Source: Spiroplasma endosymbiont of Atherix ibis (GTDB lineage Bacteria; Bacillota_I; Bacilli_A; Mycoplasmatales; Mycoplasmataceae). From it: a DNA stretch of 64,000 bases. The DNA is taken from positions 372,001 through 436,000 of the forward strand of contig NZ_OZ026474.1 of the NCBI RefSeq assembly GCF_964020005.1, given 5' to 3'. Shown here piece after piece: positions 2 to 64,000 of the stretch. The notes beneath the pieces were generated by a model. That model was given only the letters and a program-made list of their open reading frames with translations, searched no databases and was not told the DNA's origin. Numbering within the stretch: position 1 is the stretch's first letter; the number at the start of each line of letters is the position of its first letter. Position numbers and translations under genes: made by a program.

Positions 2-1164
2 CAAAGAGTAAATATTCTTTTAAGTTTAATTCATAATTCTGATTTGGTTATATTTGATGAAATTTCAACTGGTCTTGATATTGAAGTTAGAAGTGAAATT
101 TTTGATGTAATTAAAGAAAATGTTATAAATAAAAATAAAGCAATGATTTTAGTCACACATATGATGAATGAAATTGAAGAACTTTGTGAAAAATATATTT
201 ATATTGACAATGGAATAATTAAAGAAAGAGGTTTTGTAAAAGATTTAGTAGAAAAATATGGATCAGTTCATAATTTTACATGAAAAAAATTTAAAGAACA
301 AAAAGCTATGGATATAAAATCTGTATCAGATCATCATAATAATATAAAAAATAAAAATAAACTTGATAAAATAATAAATAGTGAAAAAAATAAAGGTAAA
401 AATATACCTTTAATAAAATTATTATTGAAATATTATTACAAAGGTTTTGCAGTTCATTTTTTCTTATTTTTCTTTCCATTAATTTTATTATTTTTACAGG
501 GAATTGTATCTAAATTAATGCCTGTAGCTGAGGGTCAAAATAAATGAATTTTATTGCATAATTCAATAGGTTCTTTATCGCTTATGCAAATAATATCTGT
601 TGGTATTTTTATAGTTCCTCAAACTATTTTGGAATTTAAAAATAGTGTTCTTATGAAAAGGATAGGAGCTACAAATATAAAACCAATATTTTTTATATTA
701 AATGTTGTTACTATGGGAATATTTTTTATGATAATTGGTTTTTTATGAACATTGCTTTGAGCAGGAATAATGTTTGGTAATGAATTTGGATGAGCAAATG
801 TTGCTTTGCCATATCAATTTGGTCAATCTTTACCTTTTTTACTATTAACTATAGTTCAATCAGTATCATTAGGAATGTTATTTGCTACTATATTTAAATC
901 AACAACAACTTATATTGCTGTTTAAAATGTTCTTTATATGTTAATAATATTTTTAAGTGGAACATTTATTCCAATTGATTTAATTATGGCAAGTAGTGCT
1001 TTAAAATATGTTACTTATTTAAATATTCTATGGACCCATTTATAAGTGCTTGAGCAGGTAGATTTGTTTTTAATTTAACTACAGGAATCTATCTTGGAGT
1101 TTCTCTTTCTATAGTTACTGCATTTACATTAGAAGCTTCATTTAAACTTAAATGAGAATCATAA
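2..1164 (+). pseudogene. ABC-2 type transporter, ATPase-permease fusion (5' end outside window, broken)
   Basis: The window opens inside an ATP-binding domain: the end of the signature region, Walker B LVIFDE with D-loop STGLD, and the H-loop histidine in LVTHMM (positions 20-165). The same frame, read through TGA as Trp, continues into a polar linker (about 280-430) and then hydrophobic membrane segments from about 430, so ATPase and ABC-2 permease are fused. The frame is broken by TAA at 923-925 and by a frameshift at about 1020-1030; after it the frame starting at 1030 reads MDPFISAWAG and ends at TAA 1162-1164. Sequence outside these lesions still reads as a sensible membrane protein, so the decay looks recent. 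Substrate unknown. The half before the window is not visible. Confidence 0.75.
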
Positions 1165-4398: not shown

Positions 4399-5166
4399 AT
4401 GAAATTAAAATATAATCAGAAAATTTCAAATAATGATAAATATAATTTAATAGCAACGACCTACTTAAGTTATTTTGTAGATCCAGTTTATAATCATTTT
4501 AATAGAATAAAATTAAATGATTTTGAAATATTAGAGTGTGATAACCATTCAAATGCAATGATTACAAGTAATTGAAATTATAAAAGTAATTTTTCAGAGG
4601 AAATAAAAAAATATAAACCAAAATATTTAATTAATTTTACTGAGAAAGCTTATAATAAAGAAATATTAGAAGATATTAAATTTAAGGGTAGTTATAAATT
4701 TATGTCACTAAATTTAAATAAAGTTAAAAAATTTAGTAATTATGAAATTGAAAATACTCATTTCTTAAAATTAGATGATATAAAAGAATTAGACTCATTT
4801 ATAAAAATAATAACGTAAGTATTTAGTGATGAAGTAAGTGATTCTAATAAATTTTATGGAATTTTTGATGAATATAAGCAAATAAGTGAATTATTTATTG
4901 TTAAACATAACAATAAAATTGTTGGAACAGGTCATTTAATAAATTTGGATAATAAATGTACAATTATTGATGATATTGCAATTAGTGAAACTACAAAGGG
5001 GAAAGGTATTGCAACATTTTTAATGAAAGCTCTTATAAATTGAGTTTTAGAAAAAAATCAAAATGAACTTTATTTATTTGCAAGTGAAAAGGCTTTTAAT
5101 ATTTATAAAAAACTAGGTTTTAAAGAAAAAAAATTTTGAATTGAACAATTTCAATTCAAATATTAG
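4399..5166 (+). pseudogene. GNAT-family N-acetyltransferase, interrupted by one TAA
   Basis: The C-terminal half carries a GNAT fold: a strand reading IVGTGHL, then the acetyl-CoA loop KGKGIA at about 4996-5013 followed by an amphipathic helix, and a final KKLGFKEKKF. The N-terminal 140 residues are not recognisable. One in-frame TAA at 4816-4818 separates the halves; no other lesion is present and the frame ends at TAG 5164. The substrate cannot be inferred. Candidate explanations are recent nonsense mutation, two separate polypeptides, or base-call error. Confidence 0.75.
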
Positions 5167-5195: not shown

Positions 5196-6333
5196 ATGAA
5201 AAAATTTAGTATACAATTGGTATTTATATGTTTGTTATTTTTTATGTATTATTTTTATAATGCATGAGTAAATAGTTTTGATAAAACAGATTTAATGTTT
5301 CAATTATTTGATCCTTTTAAATTAATTTTATTGGGTATGATTTTTACTGTAATTTATGCAGCTATTAAAAATCTATTATTTTCTAGATTTGTCAATTTGA
5401 AAAATTATAGAAAAAATTTAAGAAATAATATATTATTTGAGTTTGAAAATACAATAACTTATATTGAAAGTTTAAAAAAAATTATTAATCATAATGATGC
5501 TTTAGAAGCAAAAAAAGCTTTAAAACACTTTAAAACAATAAGTTATAAACCTATTTATATTTCAAATTTTATGGAAGTTTTAGCAAATGCACTTTTAATG
5601 GAAAAAGATATTTCTGTATATGCTAATTCTGTTGAAGTAATTTTAGAAAATATTAATACTAATTTTAAATTAGAAAGAGAAAGAATTCTTAAAAATCAAA
5701 AAGGAATGATGGAAATAAAAATGTCTGAATCTTATTTTACAAATAGTAGTTGAGATTCAATTAAATATAATTTAGCTTTAAATAATCTAGATAATAGCAA
5801 ATCAAGTAGATGAAAAATCTCTAGTTTATATATTTCCAAATTTAAAAATTCACTTTTTATATCATTTATGATTAATATTGTAATTTTTTCTTTTGTAGGA
5901 ATTGGAATGTACATAAATAAAGTGACTTTTAACAACTATGTATTTGTAGTTTTTATTGTTTCATTGCTTTTAATTGCTATGATTCATTACAATCTTTCAA
6001 TATTTTTATCTTCAAGAAAAATTAATATAAATATTTATTGAACTCATTTATTTGTTTACTATTTAATAATTATAATAATATTTGCAAATATTATTTTGAA
6101 TGTTATTAACATATGTTTTTGGTGGTCTTTTAGAGTTGTTAGAAAATAGTAAATTTAACTGAAAAAGTTCTATTGAAACTTTTATAGTACCTTTAATTAT
6201 ATTTATAACTACTTTAACTATAAATATAATGTCAATTAAAAGTGATAATAATAGTTTATATATAATAAATTTTGCTATATTAGTATTATTTTGAGTTTTC
6301 ACAGGTATATGAAATAAATTTTTCTCAAAATAA
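5196..6333 (+). pseudogene. Multi-span membrane protein of unknown function, frameshifted
   Basis: ATG 5196 opens a protein with an N-terminal membrane segment, a second span at about 5316-5370, a helical cytoplasmic region (about 5395-5840) and more spans at about 5850-5990 and 6030-6110. The starting frame ends at TAG 6147-6149. A neighbouring frame, entered somewhere in 6060-6110, continues as another hydrophobic stretch and ends at TAA 6331-6333, giving a coherent C-terminus of two more spans. This looks like a frameshift in an AT repeat region rather than two genes. No family recognised. Confidence 0.6.
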
Positions 6334-13299: not shown

Positions 13300-14796
13300 A
13301 TGAGTGGATTATTTAATCCTTTTAAAAAAGAAAATTTAAATCAAAATGATAACCAACAAAATGTTGGAAATTTTGATTTAAATCAAAATCCTTATAAAAA
13401 TCCAAATTATCAAAATGAAACAGCAATGTATCAAAAAAATTTGATTGAATCAAAAAATGAAGGTTATATAATACCAAGACAAAGAAATTTTGAAAACAGT
13501 TATTATGATCAAGTTCAAAATATTCCTCAATATAATAGAAGTGAAAATAATGGTGCAAATAGACCTGAATTAATTAATAGTCCGTATTTACAAAATAATC
13601 AAATGCAATATCAAAATCAACAGATGTATCAAAAACCTCAACAATTTCAAAATGTAAATAATTATAATAATTACCCAAATCAATATAATAATAATTTAAA
13701 ACAGGAATATTTAGATTTTGAGAATAATTCAAGAATTGATTATGGAAATTTTAGAGATGAAAATCAATATAATAGAATGGTTTATTCTCCAAATAATCAT
13801 ATGAATAATATTCAAAGAAATAAAAATTATAATAGACCTTTATATGAAAATTATAATGTACCTAATAATAATATGCATTATGGTTATAATGATTTTTCAA
13901 ATAATAATCAATTTTATAATCAAAACTCTCCATATGGTTATAATCCAGAAATAGATTATGCACCAGTAAGTTCAAACAATTATAATCCATATGATAAAAG
14001 TACTTACACTCAAAGATATAAGTCAGCAAGAATGATGCCAAAAGAAATTGGAAAAGAAGTAAGAAGTGAAAAATTAAGAATCTTTTTAATCTTTTTAATA
14101 GGATTAGTTGGAATAGTTACTTCATCTATAATGTTAGCTATTTTTTATAAAGCTGGAAATAATGGAACTTATATTGGAGTTAAGCGTGATCAAGTAATGT
14201 ATCCATTTTTCTCAATTTTACTATTAATATTTTCATTAGGTTTTTTTGCTATAAGTCTTACAGATTTTGGATTTATTTTTTCTAACGTTAAAAAGTATTC
14301 AAGAGATTTATATTACGGAAAAGAGTCAGTTCCTTATTTTATAACAAGAAACTATAGAAGTTTAATATCAAGAGCAGTGTATTTAAATTGAATTGCTTTT
14401 TGCATATATATTTTTGGAGCTATTTCTCTTGGTATTATGTATGGACTTCAAAGTCAAGTTGAAACATTTTATTTCCTATTTTGAAAAATTCAGTTAAAAT
14501 CATTAAACTCAGAAATTCAAACTAATATAATTGTTCTATTTGTAACTTTAACAATTCATATCTTAAATATTGTTACAACTAGAACTAGAAAAAATAATAT
14601 TATAGGTTATTATGGCTATGAAATAATTCCTCAACAAGAAATTAAAGAAATTAGAAAAAGAGCAAATAAAATATGTATGATTATTTTCTTTATAACATTA
14701 GCAATTATATTATTTTTAATTGTTATTCCTTGACTAATTATTAGAAAAAAAAGAGGTCTTTCACTTAAACCTTGAGGAACAGTAGCTAATGGATAG
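13300..14796 (+). CDS. Asn/Gln/Tyr-rich N-terminal domain plus four-span membrane protein
   Basis: 498 aa. Residues 1 to about 245 are low complexity, dominated by Asn, Gln, Tyr and Pro in repeats such as NNYNNYPNQYNNN, resembling a prion-like or intrinsically disordered domain. The rest contains membrane segments at nucleotides about 14080-14140, 14200-14280, 14390-14450, 14520-14575 and 14680-14735, ending with a basic tail. No enzyme motif is seen. The frame passes through several TGA-Trp codons. It overlaps hemW by eight bases. Possibly a cell-shape or surface-associated membrane protein; this is conjecture. Confidence 0.75.
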
Positions 14797-15883
14797 AAAA
14801 ATTAATAGTTTATATGTTCACATTCCTTTTTGTGAACATATTTGCTTTTATTGTGATTTTGTTAAAGTTAAAAAGCCTCAAGATCCAAAAATTATTGAGA
14901 AATATCTTGATAAGCTTCAAGATGAATTAGATTCTTATAAAAATAGATTAGATGATATTCAAAGTATTTATATAGGTGGGGGAACTCCAAGTTGTTTAAA
15001 TCATGAACAAACTATTAGAATGTGTGAAATTTTGTCAAAATATACTGAAAAGAAAAATTTTGAATATTCAATAGAATTAAATCCTGAATCAGTAACTTAA
15101 GAAAAATTAAAGATTTATAAAAAATATAATATAAATAGAATTAGTATGGGAGTTCAAACTTTTGATAATGAATTATTAAAAAAAATTGGAAGAATTCATG
15201 ATAATTCTATTGCAATTGAAGCATATAAACTAATAAGAAAAGTAGGTTTTAAAAATGTAAGTATTGATTTAATGTATAACTTATATGATCAAACAAGAAA
15301 GAACATTTATATAGATTTAGGTTATATTGAAAAACTAAAACCAGATCATATTTCTTGATATTCATTAATAATGAAAGAAAATTCAGTTTGAGGTAGAAAA
15401 AAAATGAAAGTTCCAGAAAATGATGAATTATTTGATGAAATAGTAAATGAATGATTAGAAAAGTTAGGCTATATTAGATATGAAATATCTAATTATGCTT
15501 TAAAACAAGAGAGTAAATCTTTTCATAATATAACTTATTGAAATAACTCTATTTTTGCAGGTGTTGGAATAGATGCAACTGGTTTTGAACAAAAAGAGGG
15601 TAAATATTATTTGACTAAAAATGAAGGAAACATTTTAAGCTATAAAAAGCAATTTCAACTTTTAACTAAAAATGATTATTATTTTAAAATAATTATGATG
15701 GGATTAAGATTAGTTGAAGGAATAGATTTAACATTAGAAACCAATCAAAAAGTTTATAAATTTTATGAGCAAATTATTAAAGAAAAAATTAATAGTAATT
15801 TATTGGAAATATCAAATAATAAACTAAAATGCACAGAAAGAGGATTTAATATCTTAAATGAGATATTAATAGATTTTTTATAA
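14789..15883 (+). pseudogene. hemW: HemW-like radical SAM protein, one in-frame TAA
   Basis: The radical-SAM cluster motif CEHICFYC (CxxxCxxC) near residues 15-22 and the downstream GGGTPS identify the HemN/HemW family; in organisms without haem synthesis HemW is proposed to be a haem chaperone. TAA at 15098-15100 interrupts after ELNPESVT; the same frame continues EKLKIYKKYNINRISMG and then to TAA 15881 with no other damage. A codon for Lys, Gln, Glu or Trp there would restore a normal 364-aa protein. Starts inside the upstream gene; pncA follows one base later. Confidence 0.9.
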
Positions 15884-16438: not shown

Positions 16439-17193
16439 ATGATTAAAGAAATAATTAATAAAGATGAGAGTAATTTAATTTTCTCAAAAATTGCAAGTGA
16501 GAAAGAAATAGCAAATTTTAAAGATATAATCTACAATTTTTTAAATCAACCTCAAGTAAAAATAGAACAGAAATATGATTTACTTTTTTCTAAAGCTATT
16601 AAAAAAATTGTTTTAAAGATTTAGTTAAAGAGCTTGAATTGGATTTTAAAACAAATTTTGTTTTATGAAAATTAACAGAGAAAATATCTTATTGAACAAC
16701 AATGTTTTTTTCTAGTAAATTTAAAAATGAAAATGGTTTTAAATTACTGCAAAAAATATTTATTTTAAAACAAGTTTTTTTAGCTCAATTAAGATATAAT
16801 TCAAATATTTGATTAAAATTGAATACAAATCAAACTTTAAAAATAAAATCAAAAAGAAAAGAAACAGAAATAAATTATAAACTTTTACTTCTAATGTATG
16901 ATTTTAGAGAAGATAATGAAGATTCTTTTGTATTATTAAATGAAAATCAAAGAGAGATTTTAGACTTAGTTTTAAAATCTAATAATATAGAAGACTTTGT
17001 TAAATTGAGAGAAAAAATTAAAATAGATTTATTTAAATATTTACCAATAAATATGATGCTTTTGCAAGCAAAAGTTATTAAAAATAGTTCAAAATTAAAT
17101 TTAAAAGAAAAAGCTAAATTATCGTATTTAACATTTATGCAATTGTTTTGTATATTTGTAGAACAAAATTTATCTAGAAAAAAAATGAATTAA
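16439..17193 (+). pseudogene. Unknown protein, frameshifted
   Basis: ATG 16439 follows a good GGAGGA site. The starting frame ends at TAG 16622 after 61 residues. The +1-related frame immediately picks up as FKDLVKELELDF and continues, through TGA-Trp codons, to TAA 17191, giving about 250 residues in total. The slip lies within 16590-16616 in a run of A and T. Rich in Lys, Leu and Asn, helical, no recognised domain. The neighbouring long homopolymer block and this slip may both reflect polymerase slippage or sequencing error. Confidence 0.6.
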
Positions 17194-45914: not shown

Positions 45915-48900
45915 GTGGATAAAATAATTAAAAAATCAATATTTTTATATTTAAAACAAGGAATAAAAGGTGTTATAAAATTCAAAATACAATTTATTGT
46001 AATTATTATTTTGAGTTTTTTAGCTTCTTTTATTTTGAGCGTTTCTTTATCATCAACAAAAAGAATTAGTGATGACTATCATAATACAACATCAAAAATG
46101 AATCCATTTGATTATGTAAGTTAAAAAGTTGTTAATGTTAATTCTTCTGATGTTTCTGGAACAGATATTATAGATCCTATGGATATAATGAACAGTCAGT
46201 TTATTTATTCAATAGATTCAGAAAATCCAACAAGTAAAAATAATAAAGCACTTGATATAAATTATAATTTGAGTTTTTTTTCAGAAAGTAATTTAAGTGG
46301 ATATAATCAAAAAACTTTTTTGACAGAAACTTTTGAAGATAAAACAGTTCAAGAAAAATTTTTAAATATGATTACAGATTCAGATTATTGAAAAGATATA
46401 TTTGGTTATGAATATGATCCTGAAAAAGACTTATCTACTTGAGAACCTTATAGATCTGTTAATTATTGGTCAGATGCTACTTCTTTTACATATTTAAAAA
46501 AAACTGCAGCTAATCATGCTGGAAAAATTAGTAATTTTTATATTTATATAATTGAAAAATTAAAATAAAATTATTTAAAAGACTTGTTTTTTGAAAATGA
46601 AAGTATTCCAAATTATATTAAAAATACTTTATTTTATGAACTTAAAAATAAAGGTTTTATAACAGAAGAAAATTTTAAAATGAATATTGCAAAAGTTGAA
46701 TATGATAATGAAAATAAAAATCAAGTTATAAGTATATCTGATAATGGAGATAATGATATTTATAACAGATATTTATATTTTTCTCTTGAAGCTTATTTAA
46801 GACAAATAATTAGAGCAACTACAGAATATCCAGCATATTGAGTTAATCAAGCTATTATTACTTCAAAAGATTCAAAAGAAAGAAAAGATATTATTAAATA
46901 TTTTAATGATTTAAATGAAAATAATAAAATAGGTTTTAATTTTATAGATAGAAATAGTTCAGAATTACAATCTGATCTTAAAAATTTTGGAGTAACTATT
47001 TTTACATGAATTTTTGGTTTTAAACCAGAAATTCAAGGATATGATAGTGTTGAAATAAAAAAAGAATTTATAGTAACTGAACAAAATACTCCTTGAAGAA
47101 ATAGTGTAGATATTTCTTTAAAAGATGATAGTTATCAATATTTAAAAAGTAAAAAAGAAGTTTATGACAAAGGAATGAGAGGATCTCTTACTCAACTTAT
47201 TGTTAATAAAAATAATAAAAATAATAATATTATTAATGTTGATAAAACTTTTAATACAAACTATTTAAGACATTTTGAAAATTCAAGTATTGATAAAGAT
47301 CTTGGAAGATGATCTAATTTTGACGATTTAGATTATTATGATAAACATAGCTATGAAAATATTAGTAGAATAAAAGGATATTTTATGAAAAATGAATTAC
47401 TTGCAAAAGTAACAAATTTTGATTATAAAGCTAGAGCTGAAGTTGAATATACTGATAATGTTTCTGAAATTACTTATAGAATTGTTGATATTGAAAATCA
47501 ATGAAAAAACTCAATTACTTTATATGAAGGTAATTTGCCAAGAACCTCAAATGAAATTCTTATTAATACACAATTTACAAGAGCAAATAAATATAAAATA
47601 GGTAAAAATATAAAAATTGGAGGAAATAATTTTGTTATTTCTGGATTTGCATCAGAACCATTGACATATTATCCAATTGCAAATACTACAAATCCTCTTC
47701 CAAATAGTAAAAAAAATGCAATTATATATGCAAATAAAAATAACTTAGATAAGATAATAACAATAGATTTAGATAAGTCCACAACAAAGATAGTTTATTC
47801 TTTTTTAACTTATAAAAATAAAGATAATCCTGAAGATATGCAAAATGATATTGACAAATTTAGAGCATATTCATTTACAAACCTTGTTTAAGTATATAAT
47901 TCTTATGAATTTTTAACTGGGAAAAGCGAATTTAAGGAAAATAATATAATAGATAAATATAAAAGTTTTTCTTCTAGTAATTTAAAATTAAATTGACTTA
48001 TAGCACCTAAAATTATTTATGGTTTTAAAATTTTTTCCATTATTTTTTGTGTACTAATTTGTTTAATTGCAATATCAGCTGCAATTATTGCTATTAAAAA
48101 AACTGTTGAAATAAATGCTGGAGAAATTGGTATATTAAAGGCAATGGGAGCTAAAAGTTAAGAAATTTCTTTATCATATTTATCATATGGGATAATTGTT
48201 ACATTATTTGTAATTCCTTTTGCTTGAATTGTGGGTGCATTTGTTCAAGAATTTATAGCAAAAGTTTTTATATAATTCTCTGGTGGCCGTTCAAATATAT
48301 TAGTTTTTAGTCCAATAGCAATTGTTATTTCTATTTTATGTTTTGGAGTAATTTTATGTTTAATTTCATTTTTTACAGCTTTTATATTAGTGAAAAGACC
48401 AACATTAGAAATAATAAACAAATTAGAGAAAACTAAAAAAATTTATTGATTGAATCAAGTTAAAAATGCAGTAGTTAAAAATAGATCATTTTCAACAAGA
48501 TTTAGTTTAGAATTAGCTGTTTCTGGTTTATCAAAAACTATTCTTTCTGCAACAACTATATTTATGGCTGGATTCTTAGTTTCTTTTGGTCTGACTATTC
48601 CAGGACTTGTTCAAAATGTTGTTGGAAGTTATTATAAAAATGTTCTTTATTCAAACTACTATGAAAATAGAGATTTAATAGGTAATGCTCCACTTGCAAA
48701 AAACTCTTTATCTCCTACAAAAGAAGTTGATGAATATGAAAAAAATTTAATTGACAGTAAATCAATTTTTGGTTCTGGTATTATCAATATTTCTAAAAAT
48801 GTAACTGATTTTGCACCAATACCAGATGCTTCAGCAATACCTCAAATTTTACTTTCTCAAAATTCTTCAAAAGAACTAACTGCAAAATTAATTTATGATT

Positions 48901-51237
48901 CAATTACTAATTCTGCATCAGGTCAATATAATAAATTATATCAAGAACAAAACTCAGTAATTTCAATTATTGCAAGTTTACTTGGAAATAATATAAGTAA
49001 ACTTGTTGGTAAAGGAATTTCAATTGAAGATATGCAAAAAATATTGGAATGAACAATTCACTCAAATTCTAATGAATTTAAAAATTCAACAAACAGTGAT
49101 GAGGGAATTCAAAAAAGAATTAAGAAAATTAATGATTTATCAGAACTTTTAACAAATGGATTACCTCAATTATTAACTAACTTTATTAAAGGTTCTTCAA
49201 TATCTGAAGGAGAATGAAAAGAACAAATTATAGAAATTATTATTGCTCAAACTCCAGCATATATTAAACAATATCTTGCAAAATCAGAAAATAGATTTAA
49301 TAATTTCTCACTTGGATGACAAATAAATAAGTATATACCTGGTGTGGATAACCTATATACAAATCTTCTAGTATCATCAAAAAATAATTTAAATTTAAAT
49401 ATTACAGGTTTACAAAAAACTCAAAATGCATATAAAATTTCAGAGAAAATAAGCAATAAAGTATTTATTAATGAATATCAATCTAAAATTTTAGAAAAAG
49501 TTTTAAATGATAAGCCTCAAGAGCAAATATCTACAAAAGAATTGGAATCAATTAAAGATATTTATAATAAAGAAACTCAAGAACTTACTATTCCAGTTGT
49601 AGCAAATGATCAAACAGATTTTGTTTTAAATAATGATTGAAATAATTTATCAAATCCTTTAATTAATAAATCTAGATTGGTTTTAAGAAATGGTTTAGTA
49701 AATATACCAAATCAAGCATGAATTTATGATGATGGTGATTGAATTAGATATAATAAAAATTCTCAAAAAAATAGTACAGATAATGGTTATATTGAAATGC
49801 AATCTTTATCTCCAAGTAAATTTACATATGCTCCTATTTTTGATCAAACTGGATTTAATTTAATTAATGAACAAAAAAATCGTGAAAATATAAATCTTAT
49901 GGATAATTCATATGGTTTTTATAACTTAACTTCAATTCCAACAGAAAAAGGTGAAGAGTTAAATTTATAAATAAGACCTTACTATTCTTTTGATAATATT
50001 ACAATGTTTATTCCTAACTTTTATAAAAGTGATTTTGAAATTTTAAAAGAAAAGGGTAATGTAGATTCATCACAATGATGAAAAGATGATGTTACAAAAG
50101 TTCCACAAGAAACTAAAGAAGCTTGAGAAAAAATAAATCCAAATATTTCTAATGATAGTTATTTTGCAATAAAACCTTATTCATTTTATTTTGATAGTTC
50201 AGGAAATTATAAAAGAGAATTAAAAAACTTATCAGGAACTCCAACTGAAACTATTGCAAAGGGATATTATAATTTTTATGCAAGAACTTTAAGAGATAAT
50301 AATGGACCAATAACTTTTGGAAATGCAGATATGAATTGAATATCAGGAAAAAATGTTAAATCTATAAAATTTGAGAAAGTTAGTTCAATAGATGTCTATG
50401 GAAATCCACTTGTTATTGCAGATCAAGATATTATTAATATTTTGAGTGGATATGGTATTTCTAAATATATTCCATTTAATTTGCAATACGAGGATTTAAC
50501 AAAACCTGTTGAAAATTATACATATAATGATGTAAAAGTTAACACTTACAGTTATATAAATCCTATTGAGTATTATAGTTATAATAAAAATTTAACACAA
50601 AAAAATTTAGTTTATGGAAATGATAATTTTGAAAGAAGTATACGACCTAGTATTTGGTATACAGGTATTTTTTTCAAATGCTGAAGAACCTTACTTTATA
50701 ACTTCACAAGCTTCATTTACTAGAGATACAAAATCTGGAGTAGATACAATAAATGGAGATAATTATGGAGCAAGTAGTTTAGAAATAGAAGGTACAAAAT
50801 TATTAAGTCAACAAAAAGCACTTATAAATCAATTATCTGTAATAATTTTAAACATTGCTACTATTGCAATTGCACTACTTATAATTATTATGATATTAAC
50901 TATTACTTTAATTAATGATTTATATGTTAATCAATATAGAAAATTTATGATTGTTATGAAATCTTTAGGATATTCAAATTGAAAAATTATTAAATATACA
51001 TTTGCAACTGTAACAATTCTTTCTCTTTTATTATATATTTTAAGTGTGGCTACTAATTTTACTATAATAGCAATTAGTTTTAATATTATAAGCCACAAGT
51101 TAGGTTCAATTCCTTTTGGATTAACTTGGTGAACACTAATTGTTGCTATTTTACTTGTATTTGGTGCATTTTTCTCTTCAATTGCAATTACAACAAAAAA
51201 AATAAGAAGAGAATCACCTTCAGTATTGATGAAATAA
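45915..51237 (+). pseudogene. Giant FtsX/MacB-type ABC transporter permease, six TAA codons and one frameshift
   Basis: About 1,773 codons. GTG 45915 follows a weak site; a membrane span at about 45985-46045 is followed by a large outside domain, three or more spans at 48010-48390 with the FtsX motif EIGILKAMGAKS, a second outside domain (48600-50800) and final spans (50835-51200) ending KKIRRESPSVLMK. In-frame TAA occur at 46122, 46566, 47889, 48159, 48273 and 49968, and one frameshift lies in a T run near 50667. Between lesions the protein is fully conserved in style, and TGA-Trp codons are abundant. No ATPase subunit gene is adjacent. Probably a recently dead or contingency-silenced export system for surface lipoproteins. 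Confidence 0.8.
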
Positions 51238-51286: not shown

Positions 51287-51799
51287 ATGAGTGAAAAAGT
51301 ATATCAGTTGAATTCTGATCAAATTGGAGTAATAAATTTTCCAGAACCTTGATTTTTAGCTCACTTTGAAATTGAAGGTGAGTTAGAACCTTATCAAATC
51401 TTTTTTCCTTCATTAACAGAAGGAATTCAAAATTTTTCAATTTTTTTCGAAAAAAAAATTATTAATTATTGATTAGCACAAGGAGATAATGGGAAAATAA
51501 AAATTAATAAACTAAGAAATTACTTATTAACCACATGAATGAATCCTGGAATTGAAACCATAAGAGAAATAATGTATCAAAATTATGGTAGTTCAGATTT
51601 TAAAGAAAAAACTGCTAATGAATTAATTGAAAATGGATATGATTTTATGGGAATAACTATTGCTCATATTTGTTTAAAATATAATAAAAATCATTTCTAT
51701 TTTGATGTTTTACATATTTCTGTTAGAGCTGTAGATAAAATATTGGCTGTTAATTTTTGATCAAAAATTAAACAAGAAACAGTTAATAAAATTGATTAA
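51287..51799 (+). CDS. Unknown 170-aa soluble protein
   Basis: Frame from ATG 51287 (AAAGGA upstream) to TAA 51797, with TGA-Trp codons in EPWFLA, NYWLAQ, TTWMNP and NFWSKI. The DFMGITIAHICLKYNKNHFYFD segment suggests alternating strands. No membrane span or motif known to me. Transcribed from its own promoter and ended by the bidirectional terminator. Confidence 0.7.
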
Positions 51800-51812
51800 T
51801 TAGAAATAAAAT

Positions 51813-53051: not shown

Positions 53052-54111
53052 ATGAAAATATTATTATCACTTATAGGATCTACTGGATTAACAGGATCAA
53101 GTGCCTCTGTTTTTATTGAAAAAACAAGTTTAGATATTCAAATGAAGGAAAATCAAATTTTAATTGGTTATTGACATAATTTTGATAATGCAACAGGTTA
53201 TAAAGGAGGAAATGCAAAATATATTGATTTAACAGAAGTTCCAGAAGAATATGATGTTATTCAAGTATCATTCTTTAAATCTTATGGAGATGGACAAATT
53301 CCTACATTTATTCCTTTAGTAGCCACACATCCAGAAATGAATCAAGAACAGAAAGATGATTTTTTTTGCAAATGAAATAGAACAATTACATAAACAAGGG
53401 AAAAAAGTTGTTATTTCACTTGGTGGAGCAGATGCTCATATAAATTTATATGAAAATCAAAAAGATGAATTTGTAACTGAAATTTTAAGACTAGTTGATA
53501 GATTTGGTTTTGATGGAGTAGATATTGATTTAGAACAGACTGCAATTGATGCAGCAGATAATCAAAAAGTTATTCCAGAAGCATTAATTGAAGTTAAAAA
53601 AATTTTAGCTGAAAAAAATATAGATTTCATTATCTCAATGGCTCCTGAATTCCCATATTTAAAAGTAAATAAAACTGGAGCAAGTTATATTAAATATTTA
53701 GAAAAATTAGAAGGATATTATGATTATATAAATCCACAATTTTATAATCAAGCAGGTGATGGAATTAATATCCAAGAAGAAGATAGAAAAGATTTGGGAT
53801 TGAATATTTATTGATTACCTCAAAATAATAACAAATTAAAATCAGAATTTTTATATCTTATTGCAAAATATATTGTAGAAGGTAAAGATAATTTTTATCA
53901 AATTAATGCTGATAAATTACTATGAGGTTTACCATCAAATTAAGATGCTGCAGCAAATGGTCAAATTCAAAAAAATAATATTAAAAATGCTACTAATTAT
54001 TTAGTTAAAAAAGATATCTATTTAAAAGGTCTTATGACTTGGTCAATTAATTGAGATAAAAACTCAAATTGGATTTTTGCAAATTATTATATAAATGAGT
54101 TTTATAAATAA
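53052..54111 (+). pseudogene. GH18 chitinase-like protein, frameshift plus TAA
   Basis: The glycoside hydrolase 18 signature DGVDIDLE (DxxDxDxE, catalytic Glu at 53533) and GLMTWSINWD near the end identify a chitinase-type TIM barrel. The N-terminal residues look like a weak signal peptide (LLSLIGSTGLTG). A T run at 53360-53367 has one base too many, shifting the frame after KDDFF; TAA at 53941 interrupts GLPSN before DAAANGQIQ. The rest is intact to TAA 54109, about 352 residues if repaired. Catalytic residues are all present, so the damage looks recent. Confidence 0.85.
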
Positions 54112-58460: not shown

Positions 58461-59137
58461 ATTTAAATAGCAATTTATCAGTTAATAATTGAATTCTATT
58501 AGTTGTGAGTGTGAATAAAACAATTGCAAATAAATCAAACACCATAAAGGCCAGTCAAGAATTTATAAATTGTATAAATCCATATACTGTTCCAAATTCA
58601 ATATACATTCTTATAAAACTTAGAAATGCTGAACTTAATGGTCCAAAAACAAATACTATAAAAGCTGAGAATATAAGAGATAAATTTTTATTTAAAGAAC
58701 GCTCTTTATTATAAACTCGAAAAATTTTATCGTACATTAATCAAAACAGTAATACTCAAATTGCTAATCCAATTCCATATGTGAACCTAAATAATAGGCT
58801 CATACCTCAGATTAGAAATTGAAGTAAACTATCTAACAAACCTATTATCATACCCCAGTATATACCTACCACTTGAAAGCTTATAGCAATAACAAAATAT
58901 TTTAAGACAAATCCTACGTTTACACCATTTATTACTAGTGGAATAACAACATTTATCATACTAACTAGCTGTGGATATACTTAGTAACAAACTGACAAGA
59001 GTTATTTTTAGAGTCTCACTCTTAAACCTTGTTCGTTTGTTTGTTTTGTTAAGTTTGCTGATTTCATAATCAATATCTATTTGATCAAAATTACTAATCA
59101 AATTAGATTCCTGATTATTTTCATCAGTTTTCTTCAT
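58459..59137 (-). pseudogene. Membrane protein resembling an ECF transporter S-component, frameshifted
   Basis: Minus strand from ATG 59137 (AAGGAG upstream): a 45-residue polar leader, then hydrophobic spans. The starting frame stops at TAG 58963-58961, but the frame 1 base over resumes as LVSMINVVIPLVING and gives six spans to TAA 58459. The alternation and a Tyr-Gly membrane segment resemble substrate-capture S-components of ECF transporters, but ligand and class cannot be assigned. Base composition is more GC-rich and includes one TGG, unlike neighbours. Confidence 0.5.
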
Positions 59138-59236: not shown

Positions 59237-59950
59237 ATGCATAGTTTCTTTTTAAAAAAAATAAATTTTGATGTTTTTGAAATTGAAAATGAAGATTTTC
59301 ATCATATAAAAAATGCAATAAAATTAAAAGTTAATGAGCAAATTATTTGTGTATATGAAAATCAAAAGTATTTATGCACTATTAGTAGTATTTTAGAAAA
59401 TTCTTATTTAGCTAAAATAGTTTCAAAAATTAATTTTTCTGAAAAGAATTATAAAGTTAATTTAATTATAGGCTTAATCAGAGAACAAAAATGAGATTTT
59501 GTTCTTCAAAAAACTACAGAATTAGGAGTTGATACTATAATTCCTGTTGAATTTAAAAGAAATGTAGTGAAAATTGATCCTAAAAAACAAGAAAATAAAA
59601 TTAATAGGTGGTTGTCAATTTGTTCTAGTGCTGCAAAACAATCAAAAAGAAGCAGTATTCCTAAAATAACAAATTTAGTTAAAGATTTATCAGAATTAAA
59701 TAAATATAAAGCAGATTTAAATTTAGTTTGTTGAGAAGAGGAAAAAAATAATTTTGTTAAAACTGAACTTAAAAAAGAATTTAAAACAATAAATATAGTA
59801 ATAGGACCAGAAGGAGGAATAAGTGTTGATGAAATAGATAAATTAAAATCTATGGGCTATATTATGGTTAGTTTAGGTGATAATATAATGAGAGCAGAAA
59901 CAGTTCCATTATTTTTATTAAGTTGTTTAAATTATGAAAAAGAGGTTTAA
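59237..59950 (+). CDS. rsmE: 16S rRNA (uracil-1498-N3) methyltransferase RsmE
   Basis: SPOUT methyltransferase of 237 aa. N-terminal PUA-like domain (1-70), then the knot: GPEGGISVDE from residue 190 and SLGDNIMRAETVPL, the motif I/III equivalents; the usual arginine-threonine in RILRTETA is NIMRAETV here. Trp codons are TGA. ATG 59237 chosen over TTG 59225 because the GGAGAG site lies six bases upstream. Four bases before the nucleotidyltransferase-like gene. Confidence 0.93.
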
Positions 59951-59953
59951 ATT

Positions 59954-61078
59954 ATGAATGAAAATTTTAGTAAAATGATCACATCTGATTTAAAAAAAAT
60001 TAATAATCAAATTCAGACTTATTCTATTGATAAAGATTTTAAAATTTTTATCAATAAAAATATAAATTTTATTAAAAGAAAACTTAAAAATTTAGTTCAA
60101 ATTAAAACTCATGGTTCTTATGCAACAGGACAAGTATATAAATTTGAAAAAGTATTAAATGTTGATTTATTAGCAATTAAATATGTTAAAAATAGTACTT
60201 ATAAATTATATGAAAATCAAATTGAAACAAAAACTCATTTTAAAAACTGTTGAATTTGCAAAACTAATGAAGATATTTATAAAATTCTTGAAGATATTTA
60301 TAAAATTTCAGAGGATGTAAAAATTAGTTGAAATGAGAAAAAAAATATAGATTCTAATTTAATAGATCCAATTCTTTTTAAAGATTCTTTAAAAATTGAA
60401 TTTTATAAAGAAAATCAATTAGGATTTTCTATATTAATTAGAACTACTATTAAACATAGTGAATATCCATTATTAATTTGTAGTAAAAAAATCTATAAAA
60501 GAAGCTTTACTTTAGAATATTTAAAAAAGTTTAGAACTTTAAATAGTTTATTAATTAAAAAATTACAAATTCTATTTTATAAAATAACAAAAAAATTTAA
60601 AAAAATCTTAACAAAAAAAGAATTACTTATTTTAAAATTATCTATAATATCAAATATTCAATATAGTTTAGTAAAAAATATTTATCTACAAAAATGACTT
60701 GATCTTTCATTTTATCATTATTTTTTAAATGAAAAAAATGTTGATAGTGCTTTTGAATCAAAAAACTTATATTATAAAAGACAAAAAAAAATATCAAAAT
60801 TTTATAATTCTTTTAAATTGAAAAATTTAAAATGAGTTTTTATTAAAAGTTATTCAAATACAAAAGAATTTTTAAATAAGTATTTGGAATATTCAAACAA
60901 TTTTATTAATAATAAAAATGAGTATATAAAAGAGAATTTTTATTTTTGATATAATTCTATTGCTTATTTAAAAAATACAATAGGTTCATCAACCATTTCA
61001 ATTAAAAAAGAAAATCAAAAGTTTGATAATTTAGATATTCAAATTTATTCAAAAACTATATATCCAACTGATAAATAA
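59954..61078 (+). CDS. Nucleotidyltransferase-like protein A
   Basis: 374 aa, starting three bases after rsmE. The segment HGSYATGQVYKF (G54, S55) followed by NVDLLAIKY (D71) has the layout of the helix-strand catalytic signature of DNA-polymerase-beta-type nucleotidyltransferases (G-S then D-x-D), but the first Asp of the D-x-D pair is Asn (N69). The rest is helical and Lys/Asn-rich with TGA-Trp codons. A likely third-Asp strand reads FSILI, with no Asp. So it may be a degenerate or non-catalytic NTase. It shares the N-x-D-hydrophobic-AIKY block with the next protein, making them paralogs. Confidence 0.6.
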
Positions 61079-61136
61079 AATGGATTGTTTTTAATATTTT
61101 TACAGTATTTTAATTTTGAAATAGAATAGGATTAAT

Positions 61137-62471
61137 ATGAAATTAAATAAAGATATATGAAAATTTAATATTACAGTAAAAAAATTAACTTCTGAAAATA
61201 AAGAAATTATTGAGAAAATTAATTTTTATTTTAATGAACTGAAAGATTTATTTTTTAAAGAAAAAATTCATTTAAGAAAAGTAGGGGATTTTTCATATAA
61301 TTCTTATAAAGAAACCGAAAAGAATTTTAATCTAGATATTTGTGCTATAAAGTATATTTCAAAATCAACTTTTGATTTTAACAAATTTATGGATTTAATA
61401 TTAGAAGTTTCTAAAAAATACAAAGGAATTCCTGAAATTCGTATAATTAAAAATTATTTAAATTTAATTTTTAATTTTAGAAATAAAAAAATAAATTTTA
61501 GAATTGTTCCTATTACTGTAAGAAAAAATAAAGAAAAATTTATATGTAAAGTTAATAGAAATGACAGAATTTATGAAGATTTAATCTTAAATTTAACATC
61601 TGATTTTAAAAATGCAAATAAATTAAGCTCTGGACTATTAATTTCACTAAAAAGAATTATAAATTATATAATGAAAGGTGAATTTAATTACTCTTATGAT
61701 ATTGATTATCTTTTATTAAGATGATTTTATGAATATATTTCAAAAACATTGGAAAATTTTATTTTCAAAAAATATAATAAAAAAGAATTAGATTTAAATA
61801 TTGAAAAATTTATGAAAGCTGAAAATTTTAGAAAATGAATTAAAAAAAATGTAAGTTTTTTAGATCTTACAAATTTTATTTTTTTAAAGTTAGATTCAAA
61901 AAATACATATTATTTTAGTGAGTTTGATTTTAGATATGAAGAAATATTTGAAGGAATATCTAGATATTCTATAAATTCTAATTCGAACTTTAAATTACCT
62001 ATAAATTATTTATCAGAAATTAAATTATTTGATACAAATTTACTTAATAATAAAATTTATATTCAAAATAATCTTTCAAATGAAAATTGTTTATCATTAG
62101 TATCATGAGAAAAATTTAAAAATGAGAGTTAAAGATATATAGTATCTCCATTAATAAAAACTGGTATTTCTAATTGACCTATGTTTCAAAAATGATTAAC
62201 TGTTAAATCAAATGAATTATATATGAAATTAAACTCAGATTTAAAATCAGAAATTAAATCTACAAAACAAAGAGAAGCAATGAGTGAATTAAATCAAATA
62301 GCAAATGAATGATTAACAAAATATAGCTTAAAATTAAAATATTTACAACCTTATTTTGATAAAAAATATCCTTTTGTATCAAATTATAAAATTGAACAGT
62401 TAGTTTTACTGATTATTCAAACAATTGATAAAATTGATTCAAAACAATGAATAATAAAAAATGATAACTAA
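61137..62471 (+). pseudogene. Nucleotidyltransferase-like protein B, one in-frame TAA
   Basis: Paralog of the preceding gene: G50 then NFNLDICAIKYISKS (N65, D67), aligning with NVLNVDLLAIKY-type residues of protein A. The strand at 119-124 (NFRIVPI) occupies the usual place of a third Asp and has Arg instead. In-frame TAA at 62130-62132 splits the protein near residue 332; after it the frame continues RYIVSPLIKTGISNW and ends at TAA 62469 with about 443 codons in all. Interpretation as degenerate NTase is inference from motif layout only. Confidence 0.55.
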
Positions 62472-63004
62472 TAGTAATCATCATCGTCATTATATTTATT
62501 TTTTATTAAATAATTATTTCTTTTTTTAATATAGTCTTTTTCTGGTTTTCCAATTTCATGATATTTATCACGACTTGCTTTAATTCTTAATTTTTTAAGT
62601 TCTTCATCACAATAAACTCATGTTAATCACACTATATGAAAGTGTCTTAAATATTTAATTTCTCTTTCATTATACATTTCAAAACTTAATGCTTGTGCTT
62701 CTCTTTGAGCATAGTCTATTCATTTTTGAGGATCAATATTTTCATTATATGCTTCTTTTGCCAATGCTTGATAAGATAATGCTTTTTTTACAATTATATC
62801 CTCTAAAGACTGAAGTGTATTTGCAATTTCTGTAACAATTGCTTGATCGGATTCATCATAAGATTTAAATTGATGTTTTGATAAATAAAACATTTTGATG
62901 CTTAGATTACTTGCAGGATTACCTCAAGTACCTAAGTGTTCTCTTTCTGAAATGATTTTAAATTCTGTTTCAATTTCTTTAAAAAACTCTGATTTAATTT
63001 GCAT
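62468..63004 (-). CDS. Unknown 178-aa protein
   Basis: Minus-strand frame from ATG 63004, with GGTGA seven bases upstream, to TAG 62468; read with TGA as Trp. The protein is helical, with REHLGTWGNPASN near the N-terminus and a repetitive acidic end (DDDDYY). No signal peptide or membrane span. Its stop codon overlaps the stop of the convergent gene by three bases. No family recognised. Confidence 0.6.
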
Positions 63005-63121: not shown

Positions 63122-64000
63122 ATGGCTAATAAGTCAGGAATTTTTTTAATAAATAAACCACAAAATATAACATCAAATGATTTAATTCAAAAAATTAAAA
63201 AAAAATTAAGTATAAATAAAATAGGTCATGCAGGAACATTAGATCCATTAGCAACAGGTCTAATGGTTATTTTAATAAATCAAGCCACTAAGATTTCTAA
63301 TTTTCTTTTAAGTAGTGATAAAAGTTATATTGTTACAATGAAATTATTTGTTCAAACAGATTCACAAGATATTACTGGAAATATTGTTGAAGAAGAACCT
63401 TTTAAAAAAATTTCAAAATCCTTAGTTAAAAAGATTATAAAAAAATATAATGGTTATATATATGATCAATATCCACCAGTATATTCAGCTGTTAAAGTAG
63501 ATGGAAAAAAGTTATATGAATATGCAATAAAAAATCAAGAAGTTGTTATAAAACCAAGAAAAGTTACAATAAAAGAATGTGAGTTAATAGAGTTCAATCA
63601 AAAACTTGGAACAATTAAATTAAAAGTTAGATCAAGCAAAGGAACTTATATTAGAAGTTTGGTTTCTGATATTGCAAAAGATTTAGAAACTATTGCAACT
63701 GTTTCACAACTTGAAAGAATTAGTTCTGGAGGTTTTTTACTTAAAAATGCAAAAGGAATTGATGAAATTAAATTTTCAGATTTAATTAGTATGTACGATT
63801 CTTTAATGATTAATCAACATCCTATTGTAGAATATCATAGAGTAAAAGATATTAAACAAGGAAAAACTATTACATTGACTGGAATTAATTACCCTATAGT
63901 TTTTATCATAAATGATAAAAAAACTGTTATTGCAATTTATAAACATATTGCACATGATTTATATAAGTGTCAAAGAGGACTGTGAGATGAAACTCCTTTA
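63122..64000 (+). CDS. truB: tRNA pseudouridine-55 synthase TruB (3' end outside window)
   Basis: TruB isomerises U55 in the T loop. GIFLINKPQNITSND opens the protein and the catalytic Asp is D41 in AGTLDPLATG. The segment QYPPVYSAVKVDGKKLYEYA and RSSKGTYIRSLVSDI are strongly conserved. Two ATGs (63119, 63122) follow GGAGGTGG; the second gives the better spacing. The last codons read the end of the protein and leave the window without a stop. Confidence 0.95.

Follow-up and report, generated by a model that had tools for sequence, protein, structure and literature searches.

The window, a 64,000-nucleotide stretch, comes from a 1.07-Mb single-contig mollicute genome and was read with genetic code 4, in which TGA encodes Trp. 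The interval between rbfA and truB holds a membrane-protein gene, rsmE, two adjacent genes (A and B), and a convergent gene, D. An initial annotation had placed A and B inside the nusA-truB block, and that is where they lie. rsmE is the first gene of an apparent operon, and its stop codon is 3 bases upstream of gene A. The features of the region, including the positions that align with nucleotidyltransferase (NTase) motifs, are as follows.

59240..59950, + strand: rsmE, 16S rRNA m3U methyltransferase (Pfam PF04452, E 4e-46; from sequence)
59954..61078, + strand: gene A, putative pseudo-NTase paralog, 374 codons up to an in-frame TAA (code 4 ORF, relatives' alignments)
60113..60118, + strand: A, G54-S55 loop of the NTase motif (family alignment)
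60158..60166, + strand: A, N69-V-D71, aligned with the D-x-D metal site (family alignment)
60440..60442, + strand: A, R163, where the third metal-binding Asp would probably lie, aligned less surely than in B
61079..61129, + strand: A, recognizable remnant of the conserved C terminus past the stop (sequence compared with relatives)
61137..62132, + strand: gene B, first 331 codons, putative pseudo-CD-NTase core (residues 1 to ~185) and start of the helical domain
61284..61289, + strand: B, G50-D51, loop matching the G-S of NTases (family alignment)
61329..61337, + strand: B, N65-L66-D67 at the D-x-D position (family alignment; hhalign alignment)
61500..61502, + strand: B, R122 replacing the third metal-binding Asp (family alignment; aligned with the CD-NTase strand)
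62133..62471, + strand: B, remaining C-terminal 112 codons, in the same frame (relatives' alignments)
62468..63004, - strand: gene D, conserved helical protein of 178 aa without a family match
63122..64000, + strand: truB, right border of the block, continuing beyond the window end

Between 59954 and 62471, alignment to relatives shows two genes. Positions 59954-61126 align to the full A profile with 5 TGA codons and 1 TAA; the in-frame TAA is at 61076-61078, and A is ~17 residues longer in relatives. Positions 61137-62468 cover all 444 positions of the B profile, interrupted by a single TAA at 62130-62132. On this alignment, the last ORF, 62181-62471, is no separate gene but the C-terminal quarter of B.

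The two genes share a block, recognized in the initial annotation and present where it was reported, in which N-x-D and AIKY come ~15 residues after a Gly loop (HGSYATG...NVDLLAIKY in A; VGDFSYN...NLDICAIKY in B). The loop had been described as Gly-Ser in both proteins, which holds for A but not for B, where it is Gly-Asp. BLASTP aligned A with B over the shared block only (33% over 52 aa; E 1e-4). Comparison of the two family profiles with hhalign extended the match to the first 170-200 residues (E 8.9e-8), and the A profile alone retrieved B genes in three genomes (E ~5e-6 to 3e-5). The C-terminal domains of A and B, when compared, had no mutual similarity. We concluded from the profile alignments that A and B are tandem paralogs over the N-terminal domain, as had been proposed.

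We compared the B profile with a reference profile of 12 CD-NTases by using hhalign. The match scored 55.4 (E 9e-7) over 173 columns, a collinear stretch that takes in the G/D-x-D motif, the strand of the third Asp, and the first helices. As nulls, 60 column-shuffled profiles scored 13.8 +/- 2.0, with a maximum of 18.9, and the reversed profile scored 14.3. Eight unrelated neighboring families put through the same test scored no higher than 16.6. The score of B against a minimal-NTase profile was 15.0, which is the null level. Among the direct searches, the only match to a CD-NTase model was made by one B ortholog, that of genome G046: it matched the NCBIfam model NF041116 ("CBASS oligonucleotide cyclase") with an E value of 4.8e-4, residues 36-169 aligning to model positions 34-171, although at 19 bits against a cutoff of 200 bits. 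A whole-genome search with NF041116 also recovered this gene. An AlphaFold2 model of B from the Citri clade had low confidence (mean pLDDT, 41; pTM, 0.34), its alignment consisting of only four sequences (window sequences plus three Citri loci). Residues 20-135 of this model, mostly at pLDDT 50 to 72, have the helix-strand-strand-helix-strands order expected of an NTase. All 50 PDB matches listed for this low-confidence model were NTase-fold proteins (best E, 1.7e-4); they included CdnE, CdnB, CdnC, cGAS, NF90-NF45, and DNA polymerase beta, with CdnE, CdnB, and cGAS the best. Together, these comparisons indicate that the first ~185 residues of B are homologous to CD-NTases, and, within the NTase fold, they place B in the cGAS/OAS/CD-NTase branch rather than among the minimal NTases. 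The NTase fold had been expected for both proteins. It is supported for B; A matched the CD-NTases marginally in a direct comparison (score of 22.3 versus a null maximum of 19.9; E 0.045), its structure prediction (pLDDT, 35) was unusable, and its fold is probable mainly by virtue of its paralogy to B. The window proteins themselves gave nothing significant in Pfam, NCBIfam, PADLOC, or PDB sequence searches, and the C-terminal domain of B matched nothing known. A viral origin is unsupported: relatives of A and B are absent from IMG/VR, and a viral fold search gave no match at an E value of ≤0.001.

The relatives of the window genome sort into Spiroplasma-type groups. Among 60 sampled genomes of the family, A is present in 26 and B in 39; a profile search of 298 genomes of the order found neither beyond the family. 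The only B match in the order outside the family, in G118, was rejected as chance, since it lies in a lipoprotein-like gene and was gone in the profile search. All 20 genomes sampled from the window's genus carry A, which also occurs in g4, g5, g6, and g9. The same genomes, apart from the g6 draft genome, carry B, and so do 14/14 genomes of the Citri clade (g8; named loci from Spiroplasma phoeniceum [two records] and S. poulsonii), where A is absent and B stands alone. Beyond the window's genus, the A-B pair is found in most of the sister genera. Each gene has one copy per genome, at a fixed chromosomal site and in a vertical pattern. In Apis-type genomes, rsmE and A are separated by 2 to 79 nt, and in 16 relatives the gap between A and B is operon-like (-8 to +16 nt). 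Hence, the predicted conservation of the pair beside rsmE holds for the Apis-type genera but fails in the Citri clade. There, B mostly follows the gene for formate-THF ligase and in most genomes is followed by a homolog of D and by coaBC. D therefore keeps its place beside A/B or B in each of the two Spiroplasma branches despite the different other neighbors, and it is possibly a functional partner of B. In one Citri-clade genome (G025; locus L076, G025:C1:944354-945671), B is broken up by a frame change and several stops, and that genome yielded no homolog of D. In a draft genome that is 85% complete (L158, G006:C29), the end of A and D face each other, and B was not found.

Between G041 and G039, approximate dN/dS values (dS, ~1) were 0.075 for A and 0.094 for B, compared with 0.065 for truB and 0.049 for infB. 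Between the window genome and its nearest relative, G035, they were 0.24 for A and 0.17 for B. The ratios indicate that purifying selection acts on A and B in relatives, and therefore that both proteins are useful there.

Bacterial CD-NTases are known mainly as phage-defense cyclases, and the CD-NTases of CBASS are the closest homologs. A and B could thus derive from a defense cyclase locus and now be defense proteins, or remnants of one without an effector. A related genome, G046, has a separate, interrupted frame resembling a canonical CD-NTase (GSFGRGTVI...DLDI), which is compatible with such an origin. Defense islands, however, are usually patchy and mobile, whereas A and B are single-copy, vertically inherited genes under purifying selection at a fixed site with ribosome and tRNA genes. 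Neither protein has a PADLOC cyclase match, and no recognizable effector or accessory gene adjoins them, the neighbors being rsmE, D, truB, fhs, and coaBC. Because no effector, PADLOC cyclase match, or mobile context was found, we consider decayed defense unlikely. The G046 frame itself (L085, ~1500-1850; G046:C1:694257-694538) is possibly a real CBASS-type cyclase in this group.

We counted the residues at the metal-binding positions in family alignments of 26 B and 23 A sequences. In B, the first position is Asn in 18 sequences, Asp in 4, and Glu in 4; the second is Asp or Glu in all 26; and the third is Arg in 22, Tyr in 3, and Asn in 1, being acidic in none. In A, the first position is Asn in 10 of 23 and otherwise Lys, Val, Ser, Thr, Ile, or Glu, and the second is Asp or Glu in 22. 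The third, where the alignment is less secure than for B, is Arg in 20 and Leu, Val, or Ala elsewhere, and never acidic. Asn in place of the first Asp, noted earlier for both window copies, is thus real in those copies but is not a family signature, and the Arg reported at the third position of copy B is indeed there (R122). The Ser of the G-S loop is Asp or Glu in 26/26 B sequences and is kept as Ser in 19/23 A sequences. Active CD-NTases have an hG[GS] loop, which B lacks, and D/E-x-D/E with a third D/E, a set found in neither A nor B. In these alignments, no relative of A or B keeps the complete metal triad. The proposal of a small, lineage-restricted, degenerate NTase-fold family is borne out for B by the NCBIfam match, the profile match with its nulls, the predicted topology with its PDB fold matches, and the loss of the third carboxylate, and it extends to A through paralogy. 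As a separate observation, B of G031 (L072, 4225-5745, - strand) has an insertion of ~60 residues directly after the third-Asp strand.

The proteins could instead be unusual nucleotidyltransferases that are still active, relying on the carboxylates that remain, with Arg in third place. The near-universal acidic second position would fit this, as would the 8 of 26 B sequences that keep two carboxylates (D-x-D, D-x-E, or E-x-E), for which weak activity is possible. E-x-E occurs in Citri B, and D-x-D or D-x-E in part of the Apis-type B proteins. Against it, the third carboxylate is gone in every member and the first in most, the B loop is G-D/E, and a single Asp-to-Asn change at either D-x-D position of a CD-NTase, D73N (giving N-x-D) or D75N, has been described as inactivating (PMC13424991). 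The D75N variant still bound ATP tightly (PMC13424991). Because carboxylates have been lost and because of the behavior of the D73N and D75N variants (PMC13424991), nucleotidyl transfer by any A or B member is unlikely, whereas binding of a nucleotide is possible. Conservation in B is also greater outside the core: mean values are 0.35 to 0.51 across residues 1-140, compared with 0.67 to 0.69 at residues 161-200, 0.66 at 261-280, and 0.67 at 381-400, and the strongest conservation lies beyond the catalytic core (residues 141-200, 261-300, and 361-420). Since conservation peaks after the core, selection on B appears now to act mainly at another surface. We therefore regard continued catalysis as improbable.

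A point absent from the earlier description is that, judged by these alignments, recent stops truncate both copies in the window genome. In the other genomes of the window's genus, A is always one open frame of ~391 codons or more and B is always one of ~444 to 506 codons. The interruption of B is recent, because its C-terminal piece retains 96% identity to the nearest relative and has a dN/dS of 0.04. Relative to G035, stops or frame changes interrupt 13 of the ~54 genes in the window (2-1161, 1247-2562, 4399-5163, 5196-6330, 14789-15880, 16439-17190, 45927-48743, 49251-51234, 51287-51811, 53052-54108, 58462-59137, A, and B), while genes such as dnaK, infB, nusA, rbfA, rsmE, and truB are open. 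The interruptions would stem from sequence errors or from gene decay that is recent and genome-wide. Because dnaK, infB, nusA, and similar genes are open while 13 others are interrupted, decay under relaxed selection fits better than random sequencing error. The stops in both window genes, and the fragmented B of the Citri-clade genome, raise the reading that the pair is a functionless pseudogene relic; it fits the window genome only, given full-length matches that are open in other genomes (24 for A and 37 for B) and their low dN/dS, and is highly improbable for the family. That the resemblance to NTases is a coincidence and A and B have another fold, as the missing Pfam and PDB sequence matches and low-confidence models might suggest, is most unlikely, with a profile match far above every null, an independent match to a curated model, and PDB fold matches that are uniformly NTases.

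We conclude that A and B are probably vertically inherited pseudoenzymes of the cGAS/CD-NTase branch that provide a noncatalytic binding platform. The dead core would not join nucleotides but would serve as a platform for nucleotide or RNA binding and for dimerization, and this platform would serve the C-terminal domain of B (~260 residues). Gene order suggests that in Apis-type lineages A, in a tight operon with rsmE and B, is likely the partner of B; in the Citri clade, B would work without A. Only the neighbors point to a role near translation or RNA modification; the translation-type neighborhood would fit an RNA-related role but is weak evidence because the neighbors differ in the Citri clade. 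In the window genome, the function of A and B would be in the course of being lost or be dispensable, because both genes were recently interrupted amid wider gene decay. By analogy, noncatalytic binding of RNA or a nucleotide is our best guess for the activity.

In animals, OASL and NF45-NF90 are known examples of dead proteins from the cGAS/OAS/CD-NTase branch. A bolder possibility, to which we give low probability, is that A and B are a bacterial counterpart of these. Dead CD-NTases, originally from a defense-type cyclase, would have taken on a housekeeping function across the genus, with A and D as partners; in this bacterium, whose genome is reduced, the factor would act on RNA or in the maturation of ribosomes. 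If so, the cGAS-branch fold would have been turned into a noncatalytic factor in bacteria as well as in animals, a claim that would rest on a triad-less family that is core-chromosomal in nearly all sampled Spiroplasma and is under purifying selection. Two Spiroplasma families now without a Pfam match can be given a name by annotators, and protein D is flagged as a possible partner.

Among known systems, the minimal NTases (PF01909; MNT/HEPN pairs) have the NTase superfamily in common with A and B, but the profile score of 15 is at the null level. A HEPN-MNT toxin-antitoxin pairing with D was dropped, since D has no conserved HEPN Rx4-6H motif and is convergent and the MNT profile is at that level. 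CD-NTases and CBASS cyclases (SMODS, PF18144; NF041116; CdnB, CdnC, and CdnE) are collinear over their NTase core with the N-terminal ~185 residues of B, which resembles them in the G loop, the D-x-D position, the third-Asp strand, and the helices that follow; in about half of B members, as in CD-NTases, this strand is followed by Pro. Unlike CD-NTases, B has a G-D/E loop and the extra C-terminal domain, and A and B lack a complete triad; unlike CBASS, A and B have no effector genes and occupy a core-chromosome location. The DZF-domain pseudo-NTases NF45-NF90 of animals are dead, belong to the same branch, and work as a paralog pair, as A and B probably do, and the PDB matches of the low-confidence Citri B model include an NF90-NF45 structure. 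In contrast to them, A and B are bacterial, no DZF or dsRBD similarity was found, and the pairing of A and B, absent in the Citri clade, is proposed from gene order only. As paired pseudo-NTases, NF45 and NF90 bind RNA with higher affinity when dimerized (PMC11952958). OASL has ubiquitin-like domains, none of which were found in A and B, but it is a dead NTase of the OAS/cGAS branch, as A and B probably are, and its dead OAS domain is kept for dsRNA binding (PMC4446440), a role to which that of A and B may be analogous.
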